In this document: positions 38,001 to 64,000 of the stretch, in pieces
Position numbering within the stretch: position 1 is the stretch's first letter
Layout: each line of letters opens with the position of its first letter
Assembly: GCF_024713945.1 (NCBI RefSeq)
Contig: NC_134678.1
Span: 7,998,001-8,062,000, forward strand
Length of the DNA stretch: 64,000 nucleotides
Direction of reading: 5' to 3'
Source of the DNA: Dermatophagoides farinae
Taxonomy: Eukaryota; Arthropoda; Arachnida; Sarcoptiformes; Pyroglyphidae
Position numbers and translations under genes: made by a program
Notes under the pieces: model-generated
What the model was told of the DNA's origin: nothing
The model's database searches: none
Seen by the model: only the letters and a program-made list of their open reading frames with translations

Positions 38001-38735
38001 TTGAGATGAAATGGAAATGAAATTCATTTTGATTTGTCAAAATTGTCGATAACAGCAACGAATAAAAGTAGGTGCAAAAAAAATTTTCTTTCCCTGTTTT
38101 TTTCTGTGTTCATGTTAGTCCCATTGCATATAACAACAACAACAACAAAGATAAAACTTTCCATCAACTAGATTCTAGAGTGTCAATCATAAATACAAAC
38201 ACAACACACACACACACACACACATTTCAAACTGATTTTCCTCACTTTGAATATCATTCAATGCTTGTTGTTGTTTGTATTTGAATCCAAATAATGGATA
38301 AAAAAAGAAAGAAAATCCTGATGACAATTGATGATGATTTGCTTTTTTTCCCTATTTTTCGCTCTTGTTTAAAGCCGAATAATATCACAGCCTGAAGGTC
38401 AAGATGATGATGATGCCTACTAGTCTTGTTTTGACCAACCAACAAAAAACTTGTTGTTGTTCACAATATTATATTAATCGAACAACAACTATCGATTTGA
38501 TTTGATTCGATCGATCGATCTATTTTTCCATTTAATTTATTATTATTATTATAAAGATCAAAACATAAAAATAGTCTTATGATTTATTCTAAGCCTTGTG
38601 GTATGTGTGTAATTTAACAAGAAAAAAATAATGATTTGCCAAATGATTGATTGATGATTGCTTTTGTTGATTCCACATCCATGAATGAAAAAAAATATGA
38701 CTGTCAGTTTTTCTTTCCCCTTCTAATACACAATA

Positions 38736-38758
38736 ATGATGATGATGATGATGATGAT
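38736..38758. repeat. (GAT)n trinucleotide repeat
   Basis: A near-perfect GAT run in the gene-poor region, one of several there. Confidence 0.85.
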
Positions 38759-41700
38759 GGTGAAATTCTTATTCAAAACACAACAACTAGGATGTTGATG
38801 TTTTTTCTCTACTTTGATCATGAATTAATTGAATCAATGATAGTACTGATGATGAGCAGCTCTCACTCTGATTTTATTTTTGATGAAAGAATTCTTGTTT
38901 GCCTTTTTGATTTGATTCCTGTTTTTTTCCTATGATTCGATATACCGAATAAAATCAATTTAATCATCAATCAGGCTGTTTTTTGTTGTTGTTGTTGTTG
39001 TTTGGTTGTTATATTTAGACCAAAAGATTGCTTTTATTTATTATTATTATTATTATAATGATAATAATGCTGATGATGAAAAAAGATCAATCGATCGATT
39101 GGTTTTTTCGTTCATATGTTTAGCTAAAATTTCTAAATGAATAGATTGGTAATAGGAATCTTCTATCAATAAGATGTTGATGTTGTCTATGATGATCGAT
39201 GGATTGACCATCTATTTATCTATCGATTCCGGGTTTTTCATTCTTTTTATTACAACAATAAACATCAAACTAATCATCATCATCATCATTGTGATAAAGA
39301 TTAAAGCAAATGAAAAAAAAATCAAAGTCCGTTGATATATGATTGGTGTTGATTGTTCAATCATCATCATCAACAAAATCTCAAGATTGATGTGATGATT
39401 GTGAGAAGAAACAATCATCATCCTCAACGAAAAAAAACGAAATCTTCCTCAGAATCATTTTTGTTCTCAATTTTTTCTTTGCCTTTTTTGCCCATCTCAT
39501 CTTGTCTCCCATATCTATGTTGCATTTGTTTTGTTGATGTTTTCACTGTTGTTGTTCTTGTTGTTGTTCGTTGCTGTTAATTGGATAATCACGAATCATT
39601 CATCTTTATGCTGTTTTTTTTCTGGATGATAATCGTTTCAATACTGATGATCTGATGTCAGGCACATAAATATTTTTCTTTCTTGATTTCATTATACAAA
39701 AATGCTTAATGAGACAGATAATCAATGAATGGAATGGAGCTTAAGCCATTATGGCACAAAATGATGGGCATCGTTTTCTTTCGTTTTTGCAAAAGAGAAT
39801 TAATAAAGAACGGATGTGCGAAGAAGAAAAAGAAGAAGAGAATGATTATATGATAAAGAAAAAAATCTCATTTTAAATGCTGCCGTTTCTTTAAAAAATT
39901 TTTATTTTATTTTTTTCCGTAATTTTTTTTGCATTTCTTCAATTTTCCTAATACGCTATATTACGACCACGATGATGAGGCTTGATTGATCGTTTATCTT
40001 CTCTCTCTCTCTCTCTCTCTTGTTATCCATTGTCATTATTTCAATTTTTATTTTGGTCATTTTTATTCAAATAGAAATTTTCATTTTCAGTTATTTGATT
40101 CCTTGATTTATGATTGAATAATAAAACAAAACAAGAAAGATGAAGAGAAAGGGACCATTCTCTTGACATAGTTTTCTTTCCAGATCGAAATGAAAAGTAT
40201 TTGAAAAATAAAATGAAATATTCGACAACTAAAAACAACGCGAAAAATACAAGGTTAACGGCATTCCATTCTCATATTTTGCCATTTTGTTGTTTTGTTT
40301 AAATGTATGAAACGTTTTTTTTTCTGTTGTTGTTGTTGCTCTAGTTTACCTTGTCATGATCAATCCATTCATTCATTTGATGCAATTTTTTTGTTTGAAT
40401 TTTCACTGGTGGATAATCTAAAAAAGAAAAGATGTAATGATCATCATCATGACTATAAAAATGGCTCAATGTAAATGGAATTTTGAAAAATATTCGATGA
40501 ATGCCATAGGGACAAATATAACGTGTTTTTGACAGCACAAACACACTGCACGTTTAGTTTTATGGATCTTGTTTTTTTTCATGTGAAAAAAATTGTTTTT
40601 TTTGATTTTCGATTAAATGAATTATCAATTATGATTACTTATTGCTCGAAGGTTTTAAAAAGAGAAAAAAAATGTTCTTTCCAATCGATTAGATTTTGTT
40701 TTGTTTACCTGGCCCCTAAATTGAATTAAATGTAAAGTGTAATGTAATCTAATAACATTTTTGTTGTATTATGAAAATTTTGTATTACAATGGTTACAAT
40801 TACAATTATCATTAGCTTACATTGTGAATGGTGAAAAAATAAGAAATGATGATTATGATTTAACAAATGTTTGCTCATCGTCATCATCTTCTTTTTGTTT
40901 GGTTGTAATCGTACTTCATAATGATCATCATGGATTACAATAGAAAGAAAAATGTGGTCATAATAATATCCCCTTTTGATTGTAATTAGCCTAATTACAT
41001 ATAACATATATAGGTAGATATTAATCAGAGAAAAAAAACCAACCAAGAAAAATCACTATCATAATAATAATCATGTTTTCATTTCAGAAATGATACGATT
41101 ATACTATTTTTTTTGTTGTTGTTGTTGTTGAAACGTAAAAAACCAAACGTTTTGTTTTTTCGGCCAATTTCGATTGAAAAAATATAGAATTCCAATTTGT
41201 TTTCGAAAATTGATTTCTTGTCTTGTGTTTTCGAAAATTGGGTTAATAATTTAATTGTCTGTGTATCTTTGATTTTTTCATGCTGAGAAAAAACTAAGAC
41301 AAATTCAATCATAATCAGATCACAAACACACACAGTAACAATATTGAGGAAGTGAATTTTCTATTCTTGCTATTTGATAACAAGACCAATGTCCCTTGTA
41401 TATTTATTTGCTTGTAAAAAGATTTTACAATCGATGATTTTTTTCATCTACTACTCCCAAATTCATGCCTGAATGAACATTTGAATGAATATTTTCCTTT
41501 TCCAAACGATGAAACGCGATATATAAGAAAAAAAGTCAAACCTTATTAATGGAAAGGAACTTATTATTTTGACAATAAACCACCACCATCATATTATGGG
41601 AAGAAGAGATAAGAGCTCATCATCATCATCATGGATGAGATTTGGTTACGGATTGAATTTTCTATTTTTTCTTGATAGAAAATTGAAATTATAAATTACC

Positions 41701-44700
41701 ATTTCATTTCATTTCATCCCAATGCCGGTTATTTTTATTCTTGTTGTTGATCTCAATCTTGTTATATTTTTAGGAATGTTGTGTATGTATATAAAATGTC
41801 ACAAGAAAAGTCAAATATCCTATCGAAATTTTTTTTTTCTTAATTTTTTGACTTGTTCAACCAGTTGTTGTTGTTTGTTCAAAAGAAAATGTTGATTCAT
41901 TTGCGATATTTATATTTATATATGGTATGTGTGTGTGTGTGTGTATTTATTGACATTGCTCCCACCGTCAAGTTGAATTTTTTTTCTTTTGCATTTATTT
42001 TAAATTATTCACAAGTACCTGTATTTTTGGTTGTTGTTTGAATAAATCACACCTTTTCTTTCTTTTGATGTCATTTCAAAGATGTGTGCATCATATATGA
42101 GTTTGGGATGAAAAAAGAAAATATTTAAATAGAAGAATGTAAGTAAGTAACCATGAAGTTCGGACAAATGAATGAAAAAAAACGGTCATCTGCATTTAGC
42201 ATTTGATATGGAGTTCATTGCCGGATACACACTGACATCAGTCATCTTGATGTTTACAGATTTTTTTTTGTAATGTGAATCCTGATTGTTGATCATGATG
42301 ATGATACTATTAAAAAGCCTACCAGAGTTTTATAATTCTACAAATGACCGAACTTATATTGCATCTACGATTACCTACCACTGGTAATAAGTCCATTGAT
42401 GTTCAAGGTTATTAAATTTTTTTTCTTTTTGGTATCATATCCAAAATATCAATCAACAATTTTTTTTGTTGATATAATGATAATGATCATGATGATGATG
42501 GAAATTTCTACTTTTTTAAACAAAAAAATCAATGTCTAACTTTGTTGAAACGTATAATAATTGATACATAGAGCTGACGATCAAATTTTTTTTGATTTAA
42601 TAACTATGATCTGATTTTTTTTTGATTTTATTAACCACTGTGAAAAAAATCCAGTGCTACCTGTTTAAAGTGGTGAACTGGAAGGAAAAAAAATCACATT
42701 ATTATTAGGTAAAAGAATTTTTTTTTATCCCATTTTATACCTTTAAAAAGGTCTAAATGACTTGTAAATTAGAATAGTGATGACCATTAATCTATAGCTG
42801 CTGCCTATGCTGCCACATCAATATGATTGGTTTTTTGATATGATCCCCTGTGGCGGCTTAAAATATAAAATATATTTTGTGTGTGTGTATTGTGAATGAT
42901 GATGGTGATAGTTTTTCGCCAATTTTTGTAACTTGAAAATGTTTATAATTGAGAACCAGTAGTGAGCAATGTGTCAATCCTTTTAAAAACATTTTTCTTT
43001 GTCTAGTGTAACCACAATTGTATTATGTAGTCATTTTTTCATAATAATCAAATCTGTAAATGTACAAAGTGATGATGTTTTATTTTTTCTAGGTGATTTA
43101 TCTCTTTTTTATGGCTTGGTTTTTTTCAGCCATAAGGTTATGCCAAATTCTTTATTTTCAAAAATAGAAAAAAAATAGTCATCATTAGCACTATGTTTTA
43201 AATGTAAAGTAGTGAAGCAAAGAAAAAAAATAACAAAATAAAGATACAAGCCGGAACAACACAATCAACAACAACAACAATAAAAATAGCTAAACAACAA
43301 TCTATCTATCTAACACAATGATTTTATCATCATCGTCAAACCTTCAGTAAGAAACACAACTGTATAGTCTTGGTAGGTGTTTGTTGTTGTTGATTATTGT
43401 TTGGTTGCAATGCATCCATTCACAACTGGTGATGATTATTATCCATCCATTACATATATAGCCATACCGGATGATGAAGATAACATTTTTCTGTAGTAGA
43501 TTATCATGTAATCATGTTGATGATAACCATCACCTGATTTACATCGTCGGATATTAAGTTATAAAATTCTCCAAAAAATTTTTTTTTGTAAAAAAAAATC
43601 CTTCCGATTAATTGATTTGACTATTTTTCCATATTGTTTTGTCGTTTCCGGTTAGTCTTGATTGATTTTTTTGGAAAAAAATGATTTATTCATCATGATG
43701 ATACAATTTTTTTTTGTTTTCACATTCAAGAAAAGAATGATTGATCACTTTTTTTATCTTGAAGAGAAATTGAATAAAATTTGTAATATGAAAATTTCAA
43801 TCACTTCGTATATTTTATATTGAAAAATGAAAGCAAATTGTCTTTGTGTGTTTGCATTATTGTTTTCATGAGACAAAAAAACATAAATCGATTGTGACAA
43901 CAACAGGAAAATGAGTAGTTTATTCTCATATGATTTTAAATCGAATTTCTGTGTAATTTCCGATTATCGATCATTTACATTATACTTTTTTTATTCGGTT
44001 TTTTTTCTGGTCATCATGATGGCATTGTATGATAACCTGAATAATTTTTTTTTTTTTTGATGTCAATCACAACAATACTGGTTGACACCGATATACCAAG
44101 CAATAACGAAAAAATGAGAACGACCACCCGGATACATAATAATAATAATAATGTTTGGGTGGATAATAGCCACAATTAACCGACACATTCGATAACCCTA
44201 TCATCTCATTGGTTTCATTCAACCATGAAAAATTACAATATCTATTATCGTGTGTTTTGAAACCCAACAACTAATAAGTCTTTTCTCATATAAACAACAG
44301 TAAGAAAAAAATTAATTAGTCGATTAGTGATGGTTCAATGGCAATATTGATGGGAGAAATGACTTGAAAAAACGTAGCCATTTTGAAACATTTTTGAAAT
44401 TTTTTTCATCATTTGAATTTGAATGTATTTATAAATCTAAATGTATGATAATGATGATGATTCAAATTCAATCTTTTTTATTTCATAAAATGACAAGAAA
44501 TATATTTTGTTTTCATTCCATCCAATACAATAACATGATTGGTATGCAAAAAAAAGTATCTCATCAAAAATAAAATCTTTTCTTTTTTTACCTTTTCATT
44601 CATTAAAATTTTTATTTCAGCCTCATCATGGTCATTGAATTGAAAATGCTGATGAATAATACGATTAGGAATGGGAAAGATTAATTTTGGTATAGATTTA

Positions 44701-46545
44701 ATTTTTGATTAAAGATTAAAGATGAAATTTAAGTTGGTCAGTCGGTTGTGTTTGATAAAATAAATTGCAAGCGCGCAGGTCAATGTATCAATCCAAAAAA
44801 AAATTTCTGATGATTTTTTTCGCATCATAAGATCGATAAATTTTTTTTTTTTGTTTTTCTCTCTCTCTATTTCACTCAATCAATTCATCTATAGATGATG
44901 ATTATGATGCTAAATATAAAACGTAAAAAAGAAAAAAAATAACCATGATTAATATGGTGAAAAACGAAAAACTAGAAAAATTTTTATACGACAAAATGTT
45001 GTTGTTGTTGTTGTGTTGTTTATACATTTAATCAATATTGTGGATATTGTGGATAATATTGATAAGATAGTTTTGCCTGTTTGATGTGTATTTAGATTTG
45101 TGCTGGTCATATATAAATCTATAGCGAGAAGAAAAAAAAATTTCAAATCCAAAGCTTGTGATAAGCCATTGAGGCCAAGTTTTTTTTCTATTTCTACGAT
45201 AAATAACGTTTTTATCCCTCCTCTCAAAAAAAAGAAAGATATTCGATTGGTTTAGGTAAGGATAGGTTCAGCAATGATGGCTGGTTGGTCGGTTGGTTTC
45301 TAATTTATATTCCGGTCGATGATGATGATCAGTATGAAATTAAATTACGAATAATGATAAAAAAACGCAAGAGAGAGAGAGAGATGTTTAAGGTCAAGTA
45401 ATCAAGTAAAATAAACCGAAAAAACCGGCCAAATCATAGATAGCTTTTTTCCATATAGTAGTCATCATGTCCTCTTATCATCATTGCCAATCACTGCAAA
45501 TCAGCAGCATAGATTTATTTTCAAGGTGTTATATAAGTGTTCTGGATGTTTTTCCAATTTTTTTCGTTCCATCTTAACTTGTTCATTCAATTATAATCTG
45601 ATGTTGATGATGATAAACCTGAATTCGAAAAAAAACCGTTCAATCATATTTATCTATATTTAAAAACTATAAAAACATTAAAAAAAACGAAAAAAATTAA
45701 CATAAAATTGTCGAATCAGGAGCTTGATTTAAATTATTTTAAGTTTATAAAAATGACCAATTTGATGAAATAATCCATTGGTTTATGTGATTTTTTGATA
45801 TATAGAAAGAGAGAGAGAGAGAAACATAAATAATTTGCAATTCAATTGATTAAATTTTGTTTTTGAAAAAAGATTGTGTGCAAAAACCACCACCAGTTAT
45901 ATGCCGGTTACATAGCCGTTAGAGAGTGGGTCATATTTTACCAACTTTCATGTGTATTTATTAATGTTGTTGTTCATAATATTCAATTCATCCATTATCA
46001 TCATCATGTAATTGTGATTCGACCTATTTGACTTTTGTGAAAAAAAATGAAAAAAAAATTTCAAATTCAATTGACTAACCATCATAGTTTTTTTTTCTGT
46101 TGTAAAATAATCCTTAGTTTGTAATGAATGAATAAATGAATGGTTCGTTCGAATGAATGGATGCTTAAATCATCATTGGTGGATTTTTTCGACAAACTGG
46201 AAATTCATGTATGCGTGTGTGTGGAATATTTTTTTTCCATAGTTGGTAGTAGTAGTAGTAGTAGTAGTCGTTCATCATCATTTTATTATCGTATTTCTTT
46301 CTTCTTGACACCAAATGATGATGATCGATACGAAATGTCCAATTTGATTGGGTCAGATATATTTTTTTAATCAACCATTTTATCCTTAGCATTTTCTTGT
46401 TTTTTTTCTTTCCCTTTTCATTCATAACATGATTATCTTTTAAATCGATCTTTTTTTCTGGATTTTCAAATTTTTTTAGCATAATCGAAATCCGATTTTT
46501 TCTTCTTCTGTTGCATCCAAATCCAAACACTTTTACGCGACTGAT

Positions 46546-46570
46546 AATGATGATGATGATGATGATGATG
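46546..46570. repeat. (ATG)n trinucleotide repeat
   Basis: An uninterrupted run of the same trinucleotide family in the gene-poor region upstream of the first PTB gene. Confidence 0.85.
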
Positions 46571-49561
46571 AACTATAGCTTAGCATGTCAATAATTTGAT
46601 AAGTGCGTGTCCAAATAAATGTTTCGTATCCAAGTAATAATGTTTTATTTTTTTGAATTTGTTGAATTTAATGAATAATAATGAAGAATATTGTAGCTTA
46701 ACAAGAACAAGTGATTAGCTATCTATAGCTAGCAATTTTTTCTATTTTTTTTTGTTCGTTTGGCCAACTAGCCTAAACAACAAGATAATATATCGCGTTT
46801 GTTTGTTGGCTATCTAGTTCATTATAGCGGCTTTCTAATCTAAAATGGTGGAATTTTCTGTTTTTTTTTTCTATGGAAAAACTATATTTTTGTTTGTCTC
46901 ATAGCCTACAGGCTACAATCTCTCTGGGGCTTCTTGTCATTAATTTTTTCAGTTTGTTATATTAGTCCATATATTTTATGCGTTTCTTGTGTGTATGGTA
47001 CCCTCAAGTTTGACTTAAAAATTCCTCATCGAATGATCGATTCGTTTTGGATGAAAAGCAAGTAAGCAAAAGAGAGAGAGAGAAAGAGAACCATCATCGT
47101 CGAAAATTCAAACGAGGTTGGCCAGCTTTTATTCTTCTATTCTAGATTGATAGACCGACCTCTAACGTATGGCTATTCGAAACATCATTGGAATCCGGTC
47201 GGTCGTTTAACTTTCATACATGTCGATATTTGCTCATCTTTTAATAATAATCATCATAGACAGAACAAGGACAGGTGAACTAATCATTGGTAGTGGCAGA
47301 ATTTTTTGACAGATCAACTTTGATGATGATAATGATGGTGGTAGTAGTTGTGATTCGAGGGTTCTCAAAATGAAGCCACCATCAAATTATAATGATGATG
47401 ATATATAAGTCGAAAGAAAGAGATGTGTGTTTAGTAAGATGATGATGATGATCATCACCTGGATCATCAGGATTTCTATCTTCCTATCTATTTTTGAAGC
47501 GAGAAAACCGGCTTTCTTTTGGGAAAACAAGAGACCAGAAGATTCGGCTTTTTTCTACTTGTCATGTTGCTGCCAGTTTTTCTTTCTTACCTTGTCTTTA
47601 AAGTTTAAGGTTTTTATTTTTTCCTTGAAAATTCATTGATTGGCAACCGCGACGACGACGACGTCGACCAAGACCACCACCAATACCGATGGTTGGTTGG
47701 TTTAAATCGTTGAATTCTTTTCTTTGACTGTATCTCAGGTAACCAAATTTTTCTCATTCGCCTATTGAATATAGTTTAAAAACTAAGCTAGCTTGTCATT
47801 CATAATATTTTTCTCTTTCTATTGTGTGTGTTTGGACCAATGGTTTCCATTCCCTATCTGTGTTCTGAATTTTTTTTTGTGTATGAAATTCGTAGCTTTT
47901 ATGATGATGATTATGATACAGGTGGCCATGTTGATGTTGATGATGATGGTGGTGGTAGTGGTAGTAGTTTTGATCATTGTAGATTCATTAAATTGTCTAT
48001 AACTTGTTGCTGTTGTTGTGGAGAAGACGAATAAAACTTTGAACACAGGTAGATTCAGAGAAAAAAAATAACAACGACGAAGCCTATGTTGTGCAACTTA
48101 TTATTGGTTAAAATAATAATAATAATCGAGGCGAAAAAACTTGAAAATTTTTTTCTCTTCTTCCTATATATCATATGCTGCTATGAATTTTTCGTGAATT
48201 TCTTCTCCGTCTTGTTTGTTTGTTTGATATTTTTTTTTCATTTCATTTCCCCATATAAAGTTTTGACTTTAGTTTTGATTTTTGTTGTTGTTGTTGTTGA
48301 TACGTTTCATCATAATTTTTTTCATCTTTGAAAAAAAATGTCAAAAGAGTAACTGGACTCGTCATTATAATAAATGAATGGCGGCCATCATCATCATCAT
48401 CATATAAAAATCTGACTTGGGTTTTTCTTTTCTTCTGTCTGTCTGTGTGTGTGTATATATATATTGTGTCCATCATTTTCAAACTTATCATTTTTTTCTA
48501 ATCATTCTCTTTTTCATCAAGCAGCCTAAGCATCATTCTTAAGTTTTTTTTTGTTTCTCTCTGTTGAATTTTTGAAAGTTTTGCTCTTTCTCTAGTTTTA
48601 TTTTCTTGTGTTCCAGAAAATAAAAATCGTAAACATCTCTTTCTTTGAACTGATTCGTACATATTTTCAGCATCATCATCATTTTTTTCGTAGCTTTGTT
48701 TTTGTTTTTGTTTCTATGTTTTGTTGAATCCTGCCTGTTATTGTGGAAGTGTGTGTGCGTGTAGGCAAGCTAAATTTTAGTTTATTAAACACACACACAC
48801 ACGAATACATTCTTAAGTACAAACATCATCATGAGAAACACTTGTTGAATCTGATCTTGTTTTTTCTTGTTGAATTTCTTTTTTGAGCTCTTTGATCTGC
48901 AAATACAAGACTACGACGACGACAAAAACAAAATGATGAAATACATTTAATGTCACATCCAATTCCATTCATTTGGCTTTTGATTTTTCGATCATTCGAT
49001 TGATTGTATATCCTGTAAAAAAATTCATTCCATAGACGAAATGATGGCCTTATGATAATGTTAATAACAATGATGATGAGGATGATTACCATCATATACT
49101 TTGTAAATCTTCTCATCGAAAAAGAAAAAATTTTTTATTCCGAATAAGTCATCCTGATAATCATCATCATCATATGACATCAAATTGTGTGTGTATGTGT
49201 CTATGTTTCGTGTCTAAAATAATGTGTGCATTATCTATGGACAATCATCATCATCATCATAGTAGTGATTGAATTCAACCCATTCAATTGATGATATTGT
49301 CGTCATATTGTGACGGCTGGGAAATTTTTCAGTTTTGTTTTGCCATTCCAAGCATCTGTTTATTAATTTTTTTCTTCAATTCATCGTGCCTTTATATTTG
49401 GTTGTTGTTTTTTATCGGCACGAAATAAAATCTTGCATCTGGTTTGACATCCTTCATCTGTCTCTCCCTTTCTCTCTCATTGTGTGTGTATGGTGTACCT
49501 GTTTTTTATGTTTATTGGCGTCCATATTTAGAATCATCATCAGCATCATTATCCTTTTCAG

Positions 49562-49603
49562 GAGAATCAACATAAATCACCGAAACAACAACAATAGACA
49601 ATA
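49562..49603 (+). other. 5' UTR exon part preceding the first PTB gene
   Basis: A strong acceptor, TATCCTTTTCAG, ends at 49561. The 42 nt up to the ATG contain an in-frame TAG at 49595, so they are untranslated. This implies at least one noncoding exon further upstream. Confidence 0.6.
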
Positions 49604-52117
49604 ATGGCTAAATCGGTTAATGGTGGTGGTGATGATACTGATAATGAAACAACACCCATTTGTCGTTGTCGTGTACTATATCTTGGTTCTGCTGTACCAC
49701 ATATTACTAAAGATGGATTACAAGGAATCCAGGAACCTTTGAGAGATCTTTATCCTGAACAAGGTGTATTTTGGAATACAGATCGAGATCATATTGCCAC
49801 TGGTATCGATTCATGGCTTTCAGTTTGGTCAAATGGTATATTAGTGGAAAATGTTGATGATAAAGGCAATACGATACGACGTTTTCATCCAATTGAATCA
49901 TTGCATTATTGTGCTGCTGTACGTTATGTATCAGTACCAGCGAATGATACAACATCAACAAAAAATGGTTCATCACATGATTCGAATAAAATAGCCAAAT
50001 TTTTGCCATTAGATAGTCCATTTTCAAAAAATTCTGCAATCGATCCAATGAAAATGGGACATCCGCCATTATTCGCTTGTATTTTGAGACGTACATCCGG
50101 TATTAAAGTACTGGAATGTCATGCATTTATATGTAAAAAAGAAGCAGCAGCTAATGCATTAGTACGTTGTTGTTTCCATGCTTATGCTGATACAATGCAT
50201 GCTAAACAGATTGAATTGGAAAGTCCATATGAACAATTGGATAGACGACGCTCAAGATCAATCGGATCAGCATTAGATTCACAATCATTGATTGATGATA
50301 AAATTAATACGTGGCAAAAAAATTCTGCTGGATCATCAACAGGTTCGCCCGATGAAACAAATGGTTTTGGTGAAACAAGATCCATATCACGACAAAAACA
50401 ACAACAACGTACACCATCGGTAGCTTCGTTAGTTAGTCATTCGATGGCTGCCGAACATCATCATCATCATCATCATCCACAATTACCGCCACCACCACTA
50501 CCACCTCATCTTCATCATGGTCTACCAATGATGGGTCTTCCAGAGCCAATCTACGGTATACCACCGACCGGAACATTACGTAGCGTTCGTTCATTCATTT
50601 CATTAGCTGCATTAAAAAGTCATAAAAAATCGCGTTCACGACAAATACCGTTACCATTTGCTCATGGCCTACCACCACCACCTCTACCGCCACAACCACA
50701 ACCTGTGATGTTTGCAACATTATCAAAAAAAGAATTGAAAAAAGTACTAAAGAAAGAAAGTACACTTAAACGTAAACATAAATATAAGGATTTCCCACTT
50801 CCATTCGTTACGGCTAACGGTTATCCGGCACCACCACCACCACCTCCACAATTTATCTATGGTCCCCCACCACCACTTCCACCACATGGTATTCATCCTG
50901 GTCCAATGCCAATCTATGCTCCACCTATGGGACCATCATATTACGGAACAATCGATAGTCGTAAAAGTCGAATACCATCACTACCTCCCCCACCACCACC
51001 ACCACCAACATCTAATATGATAAATGAAAATGGACATATGTTGCCCCCACCACCACCTCCACCCCCATCAAGTCATTTTGATGAACCAATCTATATGCCT
51101 GCTGTACCATCACCAAATGGAACACTTCGACCTGTAACACCACATGGAGAACCAATTTATTTTGAAGGACGTACTGTTAATGGGTTACCGCCAATGCCTA
51201 TGCCAATTCATCATCACCCAGGACCACCACCAGGACCGATGTTTATGGGTCCAACACATCCACAAATGGTTCCATGTACCTTGATACCAACATTGAGTCG
51301 TAAAGAATTGAAAGAATTGGAAAAACAAAAAGCATTGATGAAAAAAGCAGCAAAAAAAGAGAAAAAGAATGCTAAAAAGAATAAAAACCAACAACCACCA
51401 CATCCACAACAGCAACAGATCATGACGAATGGTAATGGTCAGCTTTATATTGAAGAACCACCACCAGGTGATTATTATCAGCCTCGACCATATGGATATC
51501 CACCTGAAGAAATCGGTGATCCTGATGAATCAATCATATCACCATCGGAAATGCAATTATCATCCGGAAATTATAGTAATGCATCTACCGGAGGTGGTGG
51601 TGGTGGCGGCGGAATATACAAAAAGAAAGGTCACCTTAATGAAAGAGCATTTTCTTATTCAATACGACAAGAACATCGTTCACGATCAAATAGTCTTTCG
51701 AATCTGGCATTTGAAAATGGACCAAATAATGGCAGTGGACGAAATGGTGAGAATGAATCACATAATAATAGTTCAGTTAGTCTAAAAAGTCAAACGGATG
51801 CTATGGCTGCTGGTCAACCAGTTCCAAATGGTCCAAAAATGATGAATGGTAATGGATCAATACCGTATGAACAACATCCACATACAAATGGTAATGGAAG
51901 AATTCCATTGAATAATGGCCATAGTCATCATAATGGTGGTCCAATGATGATGATGGATGCAAATGGTCCAATCGATCCGAATACATTAGCAACACGTATG
52001 TCAAATTTAAGCCTAAAAAATGGTTATGGACCAAATAATCCACCACCACCACCGCCACCCCTACCAACAAATGGTTATCATTATCAACAACGAACAGCTA
52101 CAATTAAACGTCTATGA
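49604..52117 (+). CDS. PTB/PID-domain proline-rich adaptor-like protein (PTB gene 1)
   Basis: A single coding exon of 837 residues; an in-frame TAG just upstream supports the ATG. The N-terminal PTB/PID-like domain (residues about 20-205) starts CRCRVLYLGSAVPHITKDGL, continues with EPLRDLYPEQGVFW, LHYCAAVRYVSVP and FLPLDSPF, and ends HPPLFACILRR..KVLECHAFICKKEAAANAL. The remaining 630 residues look disordered: several poly-Pro blocks, a His8 run, three EPIY motifs (EPIYG, EPIYM, EPIYF), two basic helices beginning TLSKKELKK and TLSRKELKE, and a Ser/Arg patch HRSRSNSLSNLAFEN. PTB domains bind NPxY-type peptides or phosphoinositides; EPIY could be SH2 docking sites and poly-Pro SH3/EVH1/profilin sites. 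This is inference. I do not recognise a named gene. Confidence 0.88.
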   Translation: MAKSVNGGGDDTDNETTPICRCRVLYLGSAVPHITKDGLQGIQEPLRDLYPEQGVFWNTDRDHIATGIDSWLSVWSNGILVENVDDKGNTIRRFHPIESLHYCAAVRYVSVPANDTTSTKNGSSHDSNKIAKFLPLDSPFSKNSAIDPMKMGHPPLFACILRRTSGIKVLECHAFICKKEAAANALVRCCFHAYADTMHAKQIELESPYEQLDRRRSRSIGSALDSQSLIDDKINTWQKNSAGSSTGSPDETNGFGETRSISRQKQQQRTPSVASLVSHSMAAEHHHHHHHPQLPPPPLPPHLHHGLPMMGLPEPIYGIPPTGTLRSVRSFISLAALKSHKKSRSRQIPLPFAHGLPPPPLPPQPQPVMFATLSKKELKKVLKKESTLKRKHKYKDFPLPFVTANGYPAPPPPPPQFIYGPPPPLPPHGIHPGPMPIYAPPMGPSYYGTIDSRKSRIPSLPPPPPPPPTSNMINENGHMLPPPPPPPPSSHFDEPIYMPAVPSPNGTLRPVTPHGEPIYFEGRTVNGLPPMPMPIHHHPGPPPGPMFMGPTHPQMVPCTLIPTLSRKELKELEKQKALMKKAAKKEKKNAKKNKNQQPPHPQQQQIMTNGNGQLYIEEPPPGDYYQPRPYGYPPEEIGDPDESIISPSEMQLSSGNYSNASTGGGGGGGGIYKKKGHLNERAFSYSIRQEHRSRSNSLSNLAFENGPNNGSGRNGENESHNNSSVSLKSQTDAMAAGQPVPNGPKMMNGNGSIPYEQHPHTNGNGRIPLNNGHSHHNGGPMMMMDANGPIDPNTLATRMSNLSLKNGYGPNNPPPPPPPLPTNGYHYQQRTATIKRL

Positions 52118-52202
52118 AAAATTTTTTTATAATTGAAAAACCAGAAATTTTGTGATTAATTCGACAATATAATTGTTCCTATTTATTATTCAAATTTTAT
52201 TT

Positions 52203-52208
52203 AATAAA
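52203..52208 (+). promoter_or_regulatory. Poly(A) signal of PTB gene 1
   Basis: AATAAA 86 nt after the stop, followed by T-rich DNA. The position is typical for a compact 3' UTR. Confidence 0.55.
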
Positions 52209-55200
52209 TTTTAACCCACTCGTTTTTTTACACAAAAAAGCCGAAATGTTTCTAGTTCGGATTAAACATGATTTTTTTTGTTTCTTTTTCGATGAATTAC
52301 AATAATAATGTCAATGATGATGATGGAATCATTTTTCTTTTTCATTTAATTTTTTCTGATTGTTTGTTTCTGTTCTTTTTTTTCGCATTTTTTAAAATTT
52401 TCATATTTTTAATTGAAAAATAACCAAACACAAACACTACACATTGATATTTATGATGAAGTTTTTTTTTTGCTTGTAACCAAGATGAAAACAAGACAAC
52501 AATTTTTAATTGATTGATGATGCATTTTTTTTGTTTTTCATTTGTGTTTTTTTTTTCTATTCGCTGTACATCCTTTTTTTTGGAAAATTTTTTTTTTTTT
52601 GTTTCACAATAATTCAAATTAAATTCATCGGCTTTTTTCCATTGATTTTTTTTTGTTTCGTATATAGATTGATATAATTTGATTTATAATTCTCATTTTA
52701 AATTTTGAAAATTTGTCCAATTTTTATTTCATTATCATCATCATCATCAATCATTATAATGACGATACGTTAGTGTCGCTCTCTATCGGCTGATATTCTA
52801 ACAACTTGAACGAAATATTTCAATTCTCAATCGTCAGATGGCAGCGCAATAGAATTTGTTTGATTTTCAAAAAAGTCAATAGTCTCTTCGTATTTTCATT
52901 ATTATTAATTATTATTATTCACTTTGCCATTGAAGATCAACGATGAACAAAACAAAAAATCGATCAAAAAACAAGTTTCGAGTATTTTTAGAGCCATTAT
53001 TTTTTCGAGGTAAATTTATTAATGATAATCATCATATAATGTGAAGCGAACAAAAAAAAAAAACAGACATAAATTTTGGCGTTGGCTTTTGTTTGTTGTT
53101 TGATACAGATAAATAAATAAAATGCCATTAATAACCTCTGTGTGTGGCTTGTCAATTGTAATGATAATGACGATAATTTGTCCTTATAAAAAAGTGAATT
53201 ATCTCCATGTTGTTCGATATTATAAACAAAATGCAAATAAGTTTTTTGTTTTTCTTCTTCTGAATTTTTATCAATATTAACATAACCCTTTTTTCCCGCG
53301 CACACACACACACACACATTGCTAATCCAAATACTTGATTCACATGTAGTGAAGATAGTTCGAATGATTTAGCCTTGTAATTGATGATTTTTCAAATAGA
53401 CTTTTTTATATTCACTTTGGAACATCATCATTATCAGCCTTTATTTTTTCTGTTGATTAAAATTACCATTTGAAATTGGTTTTTTTGTTTGGAAAATCAT
53501 TCTAGACAATTTATGTATTTGAATTTTAAAATTCAACGAAAACGAAAACAAAAAAAAATTTAATACATGTCTAGGGATAGTGATGGTAAATGCCGAACTA
53601 TCTAGTTAATCATCTGATCAAATTTCAACGTGTTGGTGGTTGTGGTTGTTTTTTTCTGTGTTTTATTTCCACTTCCTTCCCTATACTTTGCCAACATCCA
53701 CAAACATATGTGGAAGGAAATTATTTTTGTGTTAAAAAACGCAATATTTAGGCGTGTCTCTATGACACGTGTTTTTTTTTTGTCTACCAAAGTCTTTATT
53801 ATTATTTCACATTTGGAACAAAATTCAAATTAAACACATTGTATAATTATTGAATAATTTTTCTGTTGCTGATTAATTTTGAATTTAAATCGATTTATAA
53901 ATTCTTATTTTTCAGTGAAAAAAAAACAAAATCAAATCGTTTTGATTTTGTTTCTGCTCTGCTGTCTTGGTCTCAAAACAAAACAAGAAATTTAAATGAT
54001 CCAAAAGTCATTATTTGTGTGTCTCGAAAAAGTTTCAATTGCAAAAAAAAAATTTGATCGATATTTAATGTCCTTATCATCGTCATCGTCATTATTTGTA
54101 GATTTTGTAATTTTTTGTTTTTGCAAGACTAAAAAAACAATTCATTGATCAACGAGAGAGGTAAACAATCTATTTAGAACTTGAAAAATATAATGATTAT
54201 GACTCAAATCGAGAGAGTGAGAGGTCGAATGATTATTTGATTTTTTTTCTTTTCATTTCAATCTCCTCGGTTATTGGTATTGGTTATTTCAATTGAATCA
54301 TTTTATTTTTTTATTCTCTCAGTAAATGTGTGTGTGTTTGTGTGTCAATGACCAAATGCCGTTAAATGAGTCATTAGTTTTCTATTCAAATCATCATCAT
54401 CAACATCGGGTCAATCGATTCGATTGGAAATCGGAATTGTTTTTCTTTTGTTCCTCGTTTATTTTGAAGCAAAGATTTGTGTCTGTAAATTGTTTCATTG
54501 CATGATGTTGAAATTGTAACTTTTCAATTTCCCAAAAAAACCTAATTAAATGTGAATGTATATTCGATTAATTATGGAATGCATCAGTCACACACACACA
54601 CAAATATATCACATTGTAGCGTATTCAACATACTTATTATTACAATATGGCCTAGATGCATAAATAATCCATTTTTATATTTTGCAAAACACATAAATGA
54701 CCAACAGTGGTGGTCATTTTGTGATTTATTATTGATAAATTAGAAAAAAAGAAACGAAAAATTCCTATTCAACGATATAAACAACAAACTCATTCATTCA
54801 TTCATTCATTCAGGTAGATTCATTATAATCGTAAATTTCATTTATATTTCACAAACACTTTTGGGAACAGCAGCAACAACCTATAGGTAAAAAGAGAAAA
54901 AGAGAGAGAGTTTATTTGTTTCAAGTTTGTTTTAATAATAGAAATGTATGAAATAAAAATCAAAATTAACTTTAATAAAACTTGATATGAGAAAAATCCC
55001 AATAGGGAATACATTATGATGTTTTGTTTTGTCTACTTTTTTTATGAAGTTAGTTTTTTTCTTTGTTGCTAATAATCTAGCCTGGCCCATATTGCACACC
55101 ATCATCATCATTACCGATGTTGCCGCATCTTGTTTCGCATAATAATGTTGTTGTTGTTGTTGAGATTTTGTTACTATTGAATTATCAACAACATCACCAT

Positions 55201-58200
55201 CATTAATCGTTGAGCAACACCACTATTTTGGATTTTTCGCTTCGATAAATTGTAACAATCAAAAAAAAAATGATGACGAAAAAAAATTAAGCAAATTGTA
55301 ATTGTAATTTATTCCATTGATTTTTCGATCAGAAAAAAATGAATTTGTTGTTTTGTTCTGTTCTTTTTTTGTTTGGAACCATTTTTTGGATCCCTACATC
55401 ATCATCGTCATCATTTTATGGATGTTTCACTTTTTTTCTTGTATTTTCGATCAATTTTTTCCTCTCTTTCTCTGTGTTTGTTGTTTATACATTATTACAC
55501 AACATGAACACACATTTGAAACATATGTCAAACATCATCAGAGAAAAATAATCATGATCTCTGTATGTTTGTTTGTGTATACGACAAGTTATAAAAACGT
55601 ACAATTGATTCGTGATTCATATAGAAAATGAAATGAAATTTTCATTCATTGTGAAGAATAATTCAGTTATGATCTAGTTTTTTATTATTTTTTTTTTTCG
55701 TTTGTTCGTTAGTTTGCGCTTTCTATTTCTTGTTTATGTTTGTGTGTAGGTAGGTGGTCATGAACAAGAGATTAGTTTGTTTGTGGTCTTGTCCACTGTG
55801 GTTGTGTATCACTGATTGATCAATGTATAGTTCAAAGAAAATGAAAAAACTTTTAATTTTGATTTTTTTTTTTCGTTATTTATTTATCAGGTAAAATTTA
55901 TTTATTATCATCATTTTTTTTCATTTTCAATTCAATTTATATTATATGAATAGTAGCAGTAGATAATGGCTGAAATGAAAAATGATATTGATCAATGTTT
56001 GTGTACGCTGTGTTTGTTTTCCAATTTGATTCGATAAAATTAAGTTTTTTTTGTTTTCTTTTACATTTTCAATCGATTTCTTTATATTCATTATATTTGT
56101 TTGTTTGTTTGTTAGGATGTCAAAAGAAAGAAATTTTTTTTTGTAGGATGCTTATTCAATTCGATCGTTGTTGTTGTAATTGAATTTCCTTCACATTTAC
56201 AAACGAGTAATTTAAAAAAAATTGCCAAGCGATTTCCATGTAGGCTATATTTCGATGATGATGATGTTGCGTTGTGTTGAATATCACTAGTCTTAGAGTA
56301 TCAGCCGTGAATAATTTAGTTTTTTTTGTTTTGATTTTGACTGCTGTTGTTGTTCCATTTGGATCAACAGCCAATTTGAAAAAGAACAAAAATTAGTTCA
56401 GAATGGACATAATTCTGTTTGATTTTTTTTATTTTGTTGTTGTTGTTGATAGTCTATCGCTTTTTTGGTGTTTATTATGTTTTTTTTTCTTCCAAAAGTT
56501 TTTTATTGTTGTTCTTATGATGATGAAAAAATCGTTTACGTAAACGACAGATTCAAGCCAATCATTGTCAAGTGTGTGTGGAGAATGAAAAATTCAAAAC
56601 AGTCAACTTTTCACAGACAATTAATGTTCATATGTGTGTGTGTGTGTGTGTAGCGAATTGTCCACAATCTCCATCATTTTTTTCTTTTTTCTTGAAGAAA
56701 ATTATGTTTTAAATTTAGATCAAAAAAGACACTGAAAGTTTTTTTCTTTGTTTTACAGGTGAATATCATCAAGCATCACACTTGATCAGACACATTATCA
56801 TAATCATCTTTTATCATGATAATACCTGATGAATAGAAAAAATGAAATGAAAAAAACCTTCATGGACACATCTAATCTTTTTGTTTTTAATCATGAGATG
56901 TGCGTTTAAAATCCATATGAATATGTTGTTGTTGATTGAATCTGAAAATGATGATGTGATATGGATAATTTACTGTTACAGAAAATGAAACCATTTTTCT
57001 CCCAATCTATTTTTTCGCTTTCTTCGTAAATAATTGACTTTTTTTTCTCTGAAAACAGAAACACCACTGAATGACTTAATTCATTTGTATTTTTTTTTAT
57101 CTATTCTATTTCATCATCTTTGCATTCACATTTGGAATACTAAATTTTTTTCCTTGTAATCTAATCGACCATTTTTTCATATTTCATCATTCGCACAGTG
57201 TTGATGTTCATCATCATCAAGAAAAGATTTTCATGGCTAAATTCTTTTATCTTCTTCATCATCATCATTGACATTTTTTCCTCATTGATTGCTGATTTTA
57301 AATATCGAAATCTAAAAAATTGTATATATGGGTCACTAGGCAATAACAATGATGATGATGATGATGAAAATAGTTCATCAAGTTGTTATTGTTAAAGATG
57401 AAACTTGGTATACAAACAAAACCATTTTTAAGGAATCATCATCATCAAGTTGAATGAATGATGATGATGATAATTATTATAATTAATAAATGGTGGCAAA
57501 CGAAAGAAAAAAATGGTCTGCTGTAAAAATTTATTTATTTTTTTTCTCAGAAGTTAAACAATAAAAAAAAACATTTGCGTGGGACTTTTCTGGGTCTCAT
57601 CATCATCATCATCATCATTTAATACTTTCTAATCAAAATTAAAGAAAAACCAAAATTCTTATGAAGATGTTGGCAACAATGAAAAAAGTCATCACATTTT
57701 CATTACTGAATTGTTGATGATGATTACTGACATCATATTTTTCTGTTTGTCTGTGTTTCAATTTTTCTTTTTCTTTTTCAGATTGCAAAATAATAATGAT
57801 GATGATGATAATAAAGAATAAACTTTTTGATGAACAATATCTCATCATATTGAATTGAATTGAATTGAATGAATTTTAGGGAAATGATAATAAAACAGGA
57901 TTTAGATCAATTGAAAAATAATTCAACAGAGAACAAATACACATGATGGACATTCGCCTACAACATCATCATCACATGAACACATAATTAGTCCACATAG
58001 TAATATTTCTGTTTTTTTTCAAATTGATTGTTTGTTCATTACAGGAAATTACGACGTTCTCTTCACTTTGACCACATGGTTATGGGAAATTTTCCTAGAA
58101 AGAAATTGAATTATAGAGAAAGGGAAAAATTTTTGAATCTCGGTCCAGAAAACCAAAAGAATCATCTATCTTAGGTACATGAGTACCTCATTATACTTTG

Positions 58201-58861
58201 TTGAAGATGGTTATCAGTCATCATCATTATCTATGAAAATCTTGCTTTTCATCATTCTGGAAAAAAATAAACACACAATGAACACACCTCATTTGTTGCA
58301 GCATCTTTCTCTTTCCTTTCTTTTTCATTCTCTTTTTCTCCAATTGATGGAGAAATAAAAAAAAACAATCTGGCAAACAAACAAGCTGTCTGTAATGATG
58401 AAAAAATAATGTCCAATCAAGATGCAGATGATGATGATGATGATGGAGAGAGGGATACATAGACATTGCAATTAGCTACAAAGAGAAAAAGAGAAAAACG
58501 AAATGTAAAAAATGAAAAAAATCATCGTTTTTTTTCTCCAGGATACAAGGAGATCCATACAACAGTAACATTCATTAGGCCATTATATGATGAACGCACA
58601 CACACACGACAATGAACATTTTGCCGATTGAATTTTTTTTTTTGTTTAAATCATTGGCCATCAAATGATGATGATGATTTTCATCATTATCTTTTAAAGT
58701 TTTTATCATCTCTTGTCCTTGTTGTTTTGTATTTTTTTGTCCGCTGAAAAGTTGTTCCATTTTTTTTCGTTTATTTCTTTGGCCCATAATGAACAGGAGA
58801 AATTCAATTTGTTGTAGTTGATAATTTTTTTTTCTTTTGACAAAAAATTTAACACCTGTAC
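52209..58861. other. Region between the two PTB genes
   Basis: About 6.6 kb of AT-rich DNA with T tracts, GAT/ATC and CA repeats and no supported coding sequence. It should contain the promoter and possibly noncoding or short coding first exon(s) of PTB gene 2. Confidence 0.55.
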
Positions 58862-61800
58862 ATGTGTTTTTCTACTGCAATCATGTTATCCACATCGATC
58901 CTGTACTGTAACAATATTGAACAGGAAAATTCTCTTCCACCACCACCAACACAACAACCACCGCAATCGTCTTCATTACAATCAAATGATTTGATCCAAA
59001 ATCTTCATCATCATCATCGTCGTCGTAATCATCATCATAATCGACAACATCATGATTCATTATCCAACAATAGTAATGTTAATCCATCACGATATTTACG
59101 AACAACATCAAATCGAACACAAACAACAACAAATCGTTCGATTGATGGACGATCATTATTATCGGGTGGATTTAGTAGTAAAAATAGTTTCATTTCATCA
59201 TCATCATCTTCATCATTATTTTCGAGGAATAAAAGTAACATCGACAACGATCATAATCATCGTTATCGTGTACAATATCTTGGTTGTAATAACTGTGATA
59301 TACGTTCACATAAACCAGATAATGGTATTGGTGCATATCAAAAACCATTACTGGATCTTTATTGTGCAATATTTCGTCGTTCATTAATTAATCGTTCATT
59401 GTTGACATTGAATCAAGTAGCCGATCTATCTACACATGGTATATTTATTGCCGAAAAAGATCGTTTTACATCGCCACCACCACCATCATCAGCAACAAAA
59501 GCAACTTCTTCACATCATCATGACATGATTCATTCACGTGCCGGCTCATCATCGGCTAATAATGTTGATGATTGTAATAATGATACTACCTCAAATCTAT
59601 CGGAACCATCATCGACCATTGTGACCAAAGTGATAACACCATTGAGTAATGTTTTATTATGGGCAGCTGTTCGTCTTCAGCATCGTACACAATTACGCAG
59701 TGGTAATAATAGTAAAAACACTAAACGGCGACATATTGGTGTTGCATTTGTACCATTATCATGTTCTGAAGCTGTACTTGATAAGAATGCATTTGTAACA
59801 TTAAATTCTAAACAAAGATTCCTATTAGGTATGTAGTAATAATCGATTGATATTAATCAATAACAAACCAATAGCTTTCAAAAATAATCATTGAAATTGA
59901 AAAATGTTTAGTGAGCAAAAAATAAGAGAGAAATGGAAAGAAAGTTGTAAAGTGAAATTGAAAACAAATTGTAATTCACACTAAATAAGAAAGAGAAAAA
60001 AAACGATATAATGATCAATATCGATATATCCTTTTGACCTAAGATGATGATCACATGTATGTATGATCAATGAATTGTGAATCCTGAATATGAAAATGTT
60101 TATTTTATTTGAAATCTTCTTTTTTTCTTTGCGTAATTTTCACTTGAAACAAGACAACAAAATATGTAATGAAAAAAGTGCTAATAAAAAAAACTTGACG
60201 AAATATGAATTTTGTTGTAAGGTCGAATCATTCGATTTTTTCGTCTTTTCATTTCATTTTTCGTATATATTGAGCCCAAGAAAAAAGGTCAAATATTCAT
60301 ATATGCTTTTTTCTTTGCTGAAAATTATGAAAAGTTTTTTCATTACACATTGACTAGGACTAATTATTATTTACCACAATTGAATGACGATGATGATGAT
60401 AATGTCGCATCATCATCACCATCAGGTGAATCATTTTTGTTTCGACTAATATTTAGATGATGATGATGATAGTGATGACTTTTAATTATTTCATTGTTTT
60501 CTTGAGGGAAAAATTTTTAAAAATTTTTTTTTTTGCATATAAATATTTGAAATATAATAGATCTGTTGTGTTGTGGTTATTTTCGATTTGTTTGTCTTGT
60601 TACAAGTGCCAAACACTGTTAGTATTTTTCATCTCCCGAAGATTCGATGATGATAATAATAATTGTATGACATATGGCTAGCACCATTTTTTTGATATAT
60701 ATGATGATTGTTCAATGTGTATCCTGTGACGGAAAAAAAGCTGTTTGAATACAATCGAGAAATTAATTGATTGATGAATCGATTTCATCGTTGTCATTGT
60801 TGTTGCTGTTGGGATACGATCAGTTTTTTAGGCTACAGGTTTTTTTTTGTTTATCGATGCAAATCAAACATTAATATTTTCTTTTCATTTTGAATAAATA
60901 ATTGATTGATAACTAATCGATTTTCTAAATTTATCATTGCACCAACCTCGTTGATTAATGTTCATTTATTTATCTGTAGGCCATAATTATTGATTAAAGA
61001 TTAATAATTTTTTCCATTTCATAAGACTAATCAATCCATCTATGTGTTTTTTTTTGTGAGAGAGAAAAATTATTATTTCTCATTGAGAATGCATGGGAGA
61101 GAAAAAAATTTGAATTTCAATCAACCAATTTACATTTTGAACATTTTATTTTTATATTGATGATGACAATCATTGGTTCGGGTAAATATTTATTTTTAAG
61201 ACACTGAAACAATTATAGCATAATATAATCATAATAACAAAAAAAGAAATGCAAGAAAATTAGACAATGGACAAAAAGTGAGAAAAAACAAAGAGATTAT
61301 ATCGATGTATGTATGTGAATATGATCTGGTATTGTGAATTAGATAATAAGTTAATCATTTTTTTTTGTAAGTTCACACAATTTTTATATACCATTGAAAT
61401 ATGATATATATCCATTTAGATAATCAAGATTCTATATTATCATCATCATTATAAATTTGTTTATTTATTTGTTTCTTGTTTAGCAAATTAAATGCTGATG
61501 ATGATTATCTGTTTGACTTGAGAGAAAATTCACATATGATTTTAGAATTGTATCATTTCGAAAAGTTAATCTCTCTCTTTCTTTCTATTTTATGGGATCG
61601 TTGTTGTTTCATCAGTTGACCATAAAACCATAAATGATCATTATCATTTTTTCCATGTAGAATACGCCCGGATAATTTTTAAAAGCCATCTACGCCACAT
61701 TCAGGTTAATGATGAAAAAAAAGAGTGATATTCTCATGATAAATATTCGGTTTTTTCATATTGAAAACCAGGGCTGTATTTCTAGATTCAACAATGTTAT

Positions 61801-64000
61801 TCATTAATTTTTTCTATATCATTGAAATTGCCGGTATTGCCAGAAAACAGAAAAAGATGACCTGTTTTTATGTTTTTAAAGGACAAATGTTTTTCAGTTT
61901 TTGATACAGCAATACAGACAAATAAACATTTTGTTGAAACGAAAAGTCCATTTATAGTCGACGATGATGGTCATTCAATTCATTCAATTTTCAGACTTAT
62001 CGATGTCCATCAAATCTTAGTTTTCCAATTTGGATTTTTTTTTGTTTTTCTCTGTTGTGAATAAAATAACAACAACAGCTACGGCAGGAAAAATTTCAAT
62101 TACAATTTTAAATCAAGTTTTTTTTTCATTATATGTTTGTGTGTGTGGGACAATGATTCGAATCGATTTTAATTTTTTTTTTTTATTTTGTACAATTAAC
62201 ACACAGGTATACCACATCCACCATTATTTGTATGTATCCTTCAAAAAATCAATTCCAATCAACGATTAGAATGTCATTTATTTGTTTGTGGTACAACCAA
62301 TGATGCTATTCATATGTGTAATCGCATGGATGAATTAAGACAATGTTCATCGACTATTGGACGTTTACAGATTCCAGCCGCTGGACAAATGGGTAAATAT
62401 TCTTATAATAATAATAATAATAGTCGTCATCATCGTATACCATCATCATCGACAACAACAACATCAGCATCATCAATTATAACACGTTCATATACACCAA
62501 GTCAAACTGAATCCGAATTATCAATATTATCATCAACATCGATCAGTCGTCCTAAATTTTCTGATATTGAAGAAGAAGGTGATGATGAAGTAGTACGTGA
62601 AGATGATTTTGTTGATAATAATCATCATCTTATTGTACACAATGGTCATATTCATCGAGAAAATGACGTAAAAAAATTAATTGACAACTATCAATCAAAA
62701 ATAGCTGATAACAATAATCCTCGACAAGCAACAACAATGGGTTTCAAGATTATTCAACAAAATTTCGACCACAACAGCAACAAGGAACAATGATAACGAC
62801 AATGGCCAATCAAAGATCAAGTGTAGTGGTGATTCAAGGTATATTATTAATATTTTTTCCATTCGTCGTCCATTCATTCAATTATTTGTATGAAATATGT
62901 TTTCATTTGTTTGTTTGTTGTCATATAGAGAGAATAATGACAAATGATTTAAAGAAAACACAACACACACACAGCATATTTTCAATTCAGATGTAATAGA
63001 TTTTTGACGTCATTCTTATAATAATCATAATGATGATAATAATAAGCACATAGGAAATACTCAGCAATCGAATTTCCATTTTTTTTGTCAGGCCTTATAT
63101 AATCATGTATAGATGTGAAGTGAAAAATTGAACAACCACAATTTGAATTCTCATTGGGCGTAATTCAAGTAGTAGTGATTTTTTAGAGAGGAAAATCAGT
63201 TAACAAAGATATATTTTAGTCACAAAAAAAATGAATTGATACAATCGCAAAATCTTTGTATGTGTTAATAGCCACCTATTAATACATTTTTTGCCATTCA
63301 AATGTTTGATTCAAATCAAAATTTGTGTATCACTGAATTTAATTTTTTCCCTTGTAGAACGATATCGTTTTTTTGACCTTAAGAAGAAATATTTTTGTTG
63401 TCGATTGATATTAATCAAATATATCATTAATCAAAAATGTTCCATTTTGTTTCATTTTTTTTTTCATAGATTGTATGATCAAACAACAAGAATGATTGTT
63501 GTTGACAACAAGGTCGCCACCAACAACAATCAAAATGATTATAACATTGGCTGCCCATCTGAATTATCATCAATTATGAGTAGTAGTGGTAATACATCGA
63601 AATCAATTTTATTAAATAATAATTTGAAAAAATTACAACAAAACGGCCATAATGAACAAAATGATGCTGGTTTGATTGCTCAACGTGATTATCGTTTTGA
63701 ATCATACAAGCCTACAGCAATTATTAATGATGATGAATCAATGGTTATCAATGATAGCCGTACATCTACACCGAATTCTGGCAATAAATCCAGGAAAAAT
63801 GTAACCAAATTAAGTAATCATCAACTGCAGCGACCAAAATCCGAACATAACCTTGTCAGTCATCATCATCAACATCATTATCAACAGCATCAACAACAAA
63901 ATCTTAATCAAATTAATCAGCCATTGAAAAGGTCAAACAAATGGGCAACAACAAATGATTTGACTAGTAGTACAACAAATGAGTTGCTAAAAAATCGATT
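58862..64000 (+). CDS. Second PTB/PID-domain protein (PTB gene 2), multi-exon, 3' truncated by the window
   Basis: Proposed exons: 58862-59828, 62207-62667, 62729-62838 and 63470-64000 (open to the end). Joins are G+GT, phase 0, and AG+A (Arg), all in frame. The PTB domain starts near residue 135 (YRVQYLGCNNCDIR), continues with KPLLDLYCAIFRRS, NVLLWAAVRLQ and FVPLSCSE, crosses the 2.4-kb intron, and ends IPHPPLFVCILQ..QRLECHLFVCGTTNDAIHMC. It is the same family as PTB gene 1 but divergent. Exon 3 encodes QQQWVSRLFNKIS; exon 4 encodes an Asn/His/Gln-rich tail including RPKSEHNL. The start is uncertain: ATG at 58862 or 58883, or an upstream exon spliced near 58922. Likely an adaptor; partner unknown. 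Confidence 0.75.
59829..62206 (+). other. Intron inside the PTB domain of PTB gene 2
   Basis: Donor TTAG/GTATGT and an acceptor with a long T-rich tract ending ACACACAG, 2378 bp. It splits the domain just before the HPPLF strand. No coding sequence was seen inside; short ORFs are AT-rich noise. Confidence 0.75.
62668..62728 (+). other. Proposed 61-bp intron of PTB gene 2
   Basis: Without splicing, the reading frame stops at 62791. Removing GTAAAA...GACAAG (61 bp, phase 0, with CTGATAAC as a plausible branch site) switches to a frame that reads WVSRLFNKIS and reaches a donor whose phase matches the next exon. An alternative acceptor AAATAG at 62704 would give a 37-bp intron and the same frame. 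Confidence 0.6.
62839..63469 (+). other. Intron of PTB gene 2 before the last visible exon
   Basis: Donor TCAAG/GTATAT and acceptor TTTTTTTTTTCATAG, 631 bp. The leftover AG plus A forms an Arg codon and opens a frame of 176 further codons without a stop to the window end. Confidence 0.7.

Follow-up and report, generated by a model that had tools for sequence, protein, structure and literature searches.

PTB domains dock on NPxY-type peptides or phosphoinositides, and the family that the two genes described here most resemble is presumably the Drosophila CG12581 PTB family (CDD cd01217), an arthropod protein for which we know of no named vertebrate orthologue. Neither gene is assigned to this family. 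A CG12581 homologue of Nasonia, listed as "pleckstrin homology domain-containing", shows dorsal expression and is described, in the sections of the source consulted, as potentially employed in serosal movement (PMC4968023). The corresponding sections of PMC4968023, PMC10468312 and PMC8616060 give no molecular function for CG12581. A literature search for FI19613p1 returned no match, searches for cd01217, PTB_CG12581, PTHR21219 and LOC417372 yielded nothing related among the matches listed, and the combination of "PID domain-containing protein" with "mite" was likewise without a match.

Two other groups of PTB proteins are relevant to the comparison. In the genome under study, that of Dermatophagoides farinae, the top-scoring other PTB sequences for a joint profile of the two genes (27.9 and 31.6) come from two places that we take to be FAM43-like, partly on the strength of a PF14719 (PID_2) match. 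These places (C1:5210133-5210669 and C1:6892131-6892661, each within one open frame) match PF14719 strongly and lack the insert that is present in genes 1 and 2, whereas gene 1 falls below the PF14719 cut-off and gene 2 has no match. With adaptors of the Dab/Numb/CED-6/LDLRAP1 type (PF00640), genes 1 and 2 share the strand order in the profile alignment and the CHxF strand, and the joint profile retrieves LDLRAP1 (3so6) and APBB2 from the PDB; in contrast to these adaptors, both genes lack a PF00640 match and carry an insert of 45-54 aa ahead of the HPPLF strand.

For gene 1, p140Cap and Pragmin provide a further comparison, in terms of how the protein might work. All three have EPIY-type tyrosine motifs, which are potential SH2 docking sites, but the residue that follows EPIY in gene 1 is G, M or F, not A. 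In the sections of the sources consulted, the EPIYA motif of Pragmin is reported to be phosphorylated by Src-family kinases and then bound by Csk (PMC3593179), and the EPLYA/EGLYA motifs of p140Cap to be phosphorylated preferentially by Abl and to bind Csk (PMC3561454); a PTB domain is not mentioned in those sections of either article.

Gene models and surroundings

The window, that is, the whole stretch of 64,000 nucleotides that was analysed, covers gene 1 and the first part of gene 2, which continues past its end. Both genes lie on the + strand, and about 6.7 kb separate the stop of gene 1 (52117) from the earliest possible ATG of gene 2 (58862), an arrangement that agrees with the original prediction. 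Gene 1 (49604..52117) is a single open frame of 837 aa plus stop, with the ATG at 49604, a stop codon that ends at 52117 and zero in-frame stops; its coding part has no intron. The PTB-like domain of gene 1 (49655..50203, about aa 18-200), recognised by homology to the gene 2 domain and by hhalign comparison with PTB domains of the same genome, contains in order RCRVLYLG, PLRDLY, AAVR, FLPLD and HPPLFACIL..LECHAFIC. Between the AAVR and HPPLF strands lies the insert (49925..50059, 45 aa), which is missing from the PTB domains aligned. The tail (50204..52114) contains 17.9% proline, with runs such as LPPPPPPPP, and three EPIY motifs (Tyr 317, 497 and 519). In 20000 shuffles of the tail, EPIY occurs 0.009 times on average and in no case more than once. 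Several internal repeats are also apparent in this tail, namely the three EPIY motifs, two GTLR and two lysine-rich TLS(K/R)KELK stretches, along with two PLPF stretches, each ahead of proline runs. No homologues of gene 1 were found in collections of viral contigs and of genome contigs, neither of which is intended to cover animals.

Gene 2 is predicted to be split. Exon 1 (58862..59828, + strand), for which translation probably starts at the ATG at 58862 or 58883, encodes a low-complexity N-terminus followed by the PTB-like region, which runs from 59261 (RYRVQYLG) into the insert within this exon. The predicted GT..AG intron (59829..62206) is located inside the PTB-like domain, directly ahead of HPPLF, with the predicted splice sites TTAG/GTATGT after 59828 and ACACAG/GTATACCA before 62207, and the reading frame is preserved over the 59828/62207 junction. 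Exon 2 (62207..62790), whose 3' end is uncertain, encodes HPPLFVCIL..LECHLFVC and the start of an Asn/His/Gln-rich tail. The motif order across the two exons is thus RYRVQYLG, PLLDLY, AAVR, FVPLS, the intron and HPPLFVCIL..LECHLFVC. A long low-complexity stretch interrupts the domain, and the C-terminal helix expected of a PTB domain cannot be made out with confidence.

Downstream, a probable further exon of gene 2 is provisionally placed at 63470..64000 (+ strand), where a frame that encodes a low-complexity tail is open after a CATAG acceptor and extends past the window; coding-like frames continue up to about 67103 in window numbering. None of the GT donors tried at 62401-62900 joins exon 2 to the downstream frames stop-free, and the exon chain is not closed. 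By eye, more than one frame looks coding at 62667-62838, at the end of exon 2, possibly because of a tiny intron or an indel in the assembly. The last probable frame (65661-67103 in window numbering; L009 7661-9103) encodes clustered cysteines (ECCDLCQMELENCDKCCSFC) as well as a basic stretch and shows no Pfam match above the cut-off.

Upstream of the pair, the neighbours identified with Pfam at 855-33892 are all on the minus strand and include a homeodomain, a PH domain together with an oxysterol-binding protein, a ZIP transporter, a heparan sulfate N-deacetylase and sulfotransferase, and Btz/CASC3 (an open frame of 1337 aa). The approximately 14.5 kb ahead of gene 1 (35078-49597) contain zero open frames of at least 150 aa. 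Between gene 1 and gene 2, none of the six open frames of at least 80 aa has a Pfam match above the cut-off.

Homology of the two domains and their PTB class

All the motifs that the original prediction attributed to both proteins are found, in the claimed order, in the translated genes 1 and 2. Comparison of the spliced domains yields a Smith-Waterman score of 98, against 32.1 +/- 5.2 for shuffled sequences, with 0 of 2000 shuffles as high. Similarity extends to both halves of the domain. Up to AAVR, and without the low-complexity stretch of gene 2, the alignment scores 54, which 1 of 5000 shuffles attains; from HPPLF onward it scores 91, which none of 5000 attains. Identity amounts to 33% over 115 columns, and HPPLF, CIL and LECH are identical in the two genes. 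When gene 1 is used as a protein query against the 62.4 Mb genome at E<=1, the only matches are gene 1 itself and gene 2 (E 0.0016 over 29 residues); conversely, gene 2 retrieves only itself and gene 1 (E 5e-5, query residues 3-166 of 195). Further weak members of the family may exist because these searches score the best candidates only. In each of five MAFFT trials that entered pieces of gene 2 as rows of their own, one or more pieces were misplaced, and these alignments are excluded as evidence; two further alignments supplied the first fold prediction and the profiles, respectively. At the level of sequence, homology of the two domains can be considered established.

The assignment to the PTB/PID family, also part of the original prediction, is borne out by profile comparison. 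Over 112 columns, the pair profile aligns with one built from seven further PTB domains encoded in this genome (hhalign score 40.9, E 3.6e-6, probability 87), compared to a mean of 12.1 and a maximum of 18.6 for 200 column shuffles, which lacked the gene 2 insert letters present in the real query. Tested singly against the seven-domain profile after removal of the inserts, gene 1 reaches 50.7 and gene 2 32.4; a set of 12 pieces of the window that are unrelated or of PH type stays at or below 19.3. A PDB search with the joint profile at E<=10 retrieves five distinct sequences; all are LDLRAP1 or APBB2 constructs, which we take to be PTB domains; at E 0.04-0.25, each of these matches is weak taken alone.

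Some results with single sequences and Pfam models count against the assignment. PF00640 (PID) has no match in gene 1 or gene 2, and neither gene is among the 11 places that this model finds in the genome; for PF14719, gene 1 scores 15.9 bits against a cut-off of 25.4 and gene 2 is without a match. Against the pair profile, the CED-6-, Dab-, Shc- and Mint-like sequences score 11.1-15.9, with unrelated pieces scoring up to 15.0; the sequences that stand above the unrelated pieces are the FAM43-like ones (27.9 and 31.6), L004 (22.2) and the Numb-like one (21.2). By sequence comparison, the PTB signal is carried by the profiles together with the FAM43-like, L004 and Numb-like rows. In this set, the Numb, Dab, Shc and Mint labels are our assumption, and the CED-6/GULP label was checked through a match to 6itu (E 1.3e-49). 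The Mint-like row (L003/L008), which MAFFT misaligned, was used neither for the PTB profile nor for the tree but is one of the eight single sequences; the partial PTB places L005, L016 and C3:3505964 were left out throughout; and L015 and L001 are one place. The AlphaFold models are of low confidence (pLDDT 35.1, pTM 0.29; for gene 1, pLDDT 35.9, pTM 0.35), and fold searches with them produced no PTB chain among the matches listed. In the gene 1 model, whose confidence is too low for this to carry weight, the predicted strands and helices follow the order of a PTB domain, with a long gap before HPPLF. Taken together, the sequence profiles show the domain of genes 1 and 2 to be of a known kind, the PTB type.

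The remaining parts of the original prediction concern the insert and the tails, and did not fare equally well. The spacing between AAVR and HPPLF is long, as predicted (gene 1, 45 aa; gene 2, 54 aa), and the profile of the other PTB domains aligns to gene 1 by skipping most of this stretch. The further proposal that the insert has a conserved F-x-PL core of its own does not hold up: the local alignment of the two inserts scores 20 against a shuffle mean of 19.8, with 45% of 5000 shuffles as good (29% in global alignment). Since the insert alignment equals that of shuffles, F-x-PL is a three-residue match that, coming from two sequences, carries no weight. Divergence of the tails is in agreement with the tail comparison under a crude low-complexity mask, which finds nothing above shuffles (best masked segment 35; shuffle mean 33.9, maximum 41, n=40). 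The candidate pair of kindred motifs LATRMSNLSLKNG in gene 1 and LETKMAGLGLNG in the gene 2 tail was rejected, being absent from the segments listed, with the masked tails indistinguishable from shuffles.

Probable duplication history and alternative explanations

Genes 1 and 2 are each other's best matches in the genome, among the best candidates scored, and are adjacent on the same strand. In single-sequence hhalign comparison with the inserts cut, they match each other with a score of 76.6 (probability 97.9), whereas neither gene exceeds 31.84 against any of the eight further PTB sequences taken from this genome; after its partner, gene 1 scores best with the two FAM43-like sequences and the Numb-like row, and gene 2 with one FAM43-like row. 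The sister placement expected for the two genes in a tree of PID proteins is recovered with moderate support (88/90) among nine rows of this genome, where a 97/96 branch sets the gene pair and the FAM43-like pair apart from the other rows. Alternative topologies that group gene 1 or gene 2 with the FAM43-like pair alone are not significantly worse (p 0.108 each), and the gene 2 branch is long (1.69). By rough arithmetic, the chance that two such members would be adjacent in 62.4 Mb is roughly a few times 10^-4. An old tandem duplication, as originally proposed, is the simplest history because the two PTB domains are mutually nearest among those compared and the genes are the only pair found, 6.7 kb apart on one strand. 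We infer such a duplication event from these sequence comparisons and consider it probable that genes 1 and 2 are sister genes of one divergent PTB family that arose in this manner, each encoding a cytoplasmic adaptor.

Other histories of the pair deserve consideration. The pair could go back to two PTB genes that were already distinct, with one perhaps belonging to the CG12581 type, and that became linked long before this lineage; it would then be an inherited ancient cluster and no product of duplication within the lineage. We regard this as a real, if clearly lesser, possibility, which would fit the identity of only 33% over 115 columns, the long gene 2 branch and the tails without detectable similarity, whereas the mutual proximity of the two genes among the PTB domains compared speaks against it. 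Such a cluster is a matter of age and is compatible with tandem duplication as such. The intron pattern, with gene 1 intronless in its coding part and gene 2 interrupted within the domain, does not back a plain segmental duplication and might instead suggest that gene 1 originated as a reverse-transcribed copy inserted close to gene 2, hence its uninterrupted frame. We consider this very unlikely because a retrocopy would hardly be expected to land 6.7 kb away on the same strand, and simple intron loss accounts for the intronless gene 1 equally well.

The nature of the domains can be questioned as well. In the case of gene 2, the long low-complexity stretch within the domain, the long branch, the C-terminal helix that does not align clearly and the gene model that does not close downstream could all indicate a protein that no longer binds peptides and is either a scaffold only or decaying. 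This seems unlikely to us, given that HPPLF, CIL and LECH are the same as in gene 1, which is unexpected for an unconstrained gene at 33% identity. For both genes, the shared motifs could belong to another fold that resembles PTB in short stretches; the Pfam PID cut-offs are not reached, the low-confidence models and the fold searches provide no structural confirmation, and several single PTB sequences score no higher than unrelated ones. Against this explanation stand the profile match over 112 ordered columns, far above the 200 shuffles and the 12 unrelated or PH pieces, and the retrieval of PTB constructs only from the PDB, so that we give it hardly any credence.

Possible mode of action and implications

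If genes 1 and 2 are sister PTB adaptors derived from a tandem duplication, as we favour, the N-terminal PTB-type domain would be expected to dock on a short NPxY-like peptide or on a phospholipid at a membrane receptor, and the long, putatively disordered tail might recruit other partners. In gene 1, the proline runs are candidate ligands of SH3, EVH1 or profilin domains, and the EPIY tyrosines, if phosphorylated by Src- or Abl-type kinases, could take up SH2 proteins such as Csk. The excess of EPIY motifs, the proline-rich tail and the precedent of Pragmin and p140Cap make an adaptor role of gene 1 that includes SH2 docking plausible by analogy. For gene 2, in whose Asn/His/Gln-rich tail no ligand motif is recognised, docking alone is proposed.

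A more elaborate scheme, which we rate as quite unlikely, would have gene 1 act as a membrane-recruited Csk/SH2 platform, its PTB domain bringing the multi-EPIY, poly-proline tail to receptors, and gene 2, which would have kept the docking domain without the signalling tail, compete with it. Under the same scheme, and with similarly little confidence, gene 1 would unite roles that are split between Pragmin or p140Cap and the Dab-type adaptors.

Because both genes score below the PID cut-offs, they may go unnamed in annotation that is based on the Pfam PID models. PTB adaptors are a well-studied kind of protein, and two linked genes that share a recognisable domain but whose tails are unrelated would be a good case for the replacement of adaptor tails after duplication. 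The presence of three EPIY motifs in a PTB protein, in turn, would offer a direct biochemical route to Src/Abl and Csk signalling in this animal.
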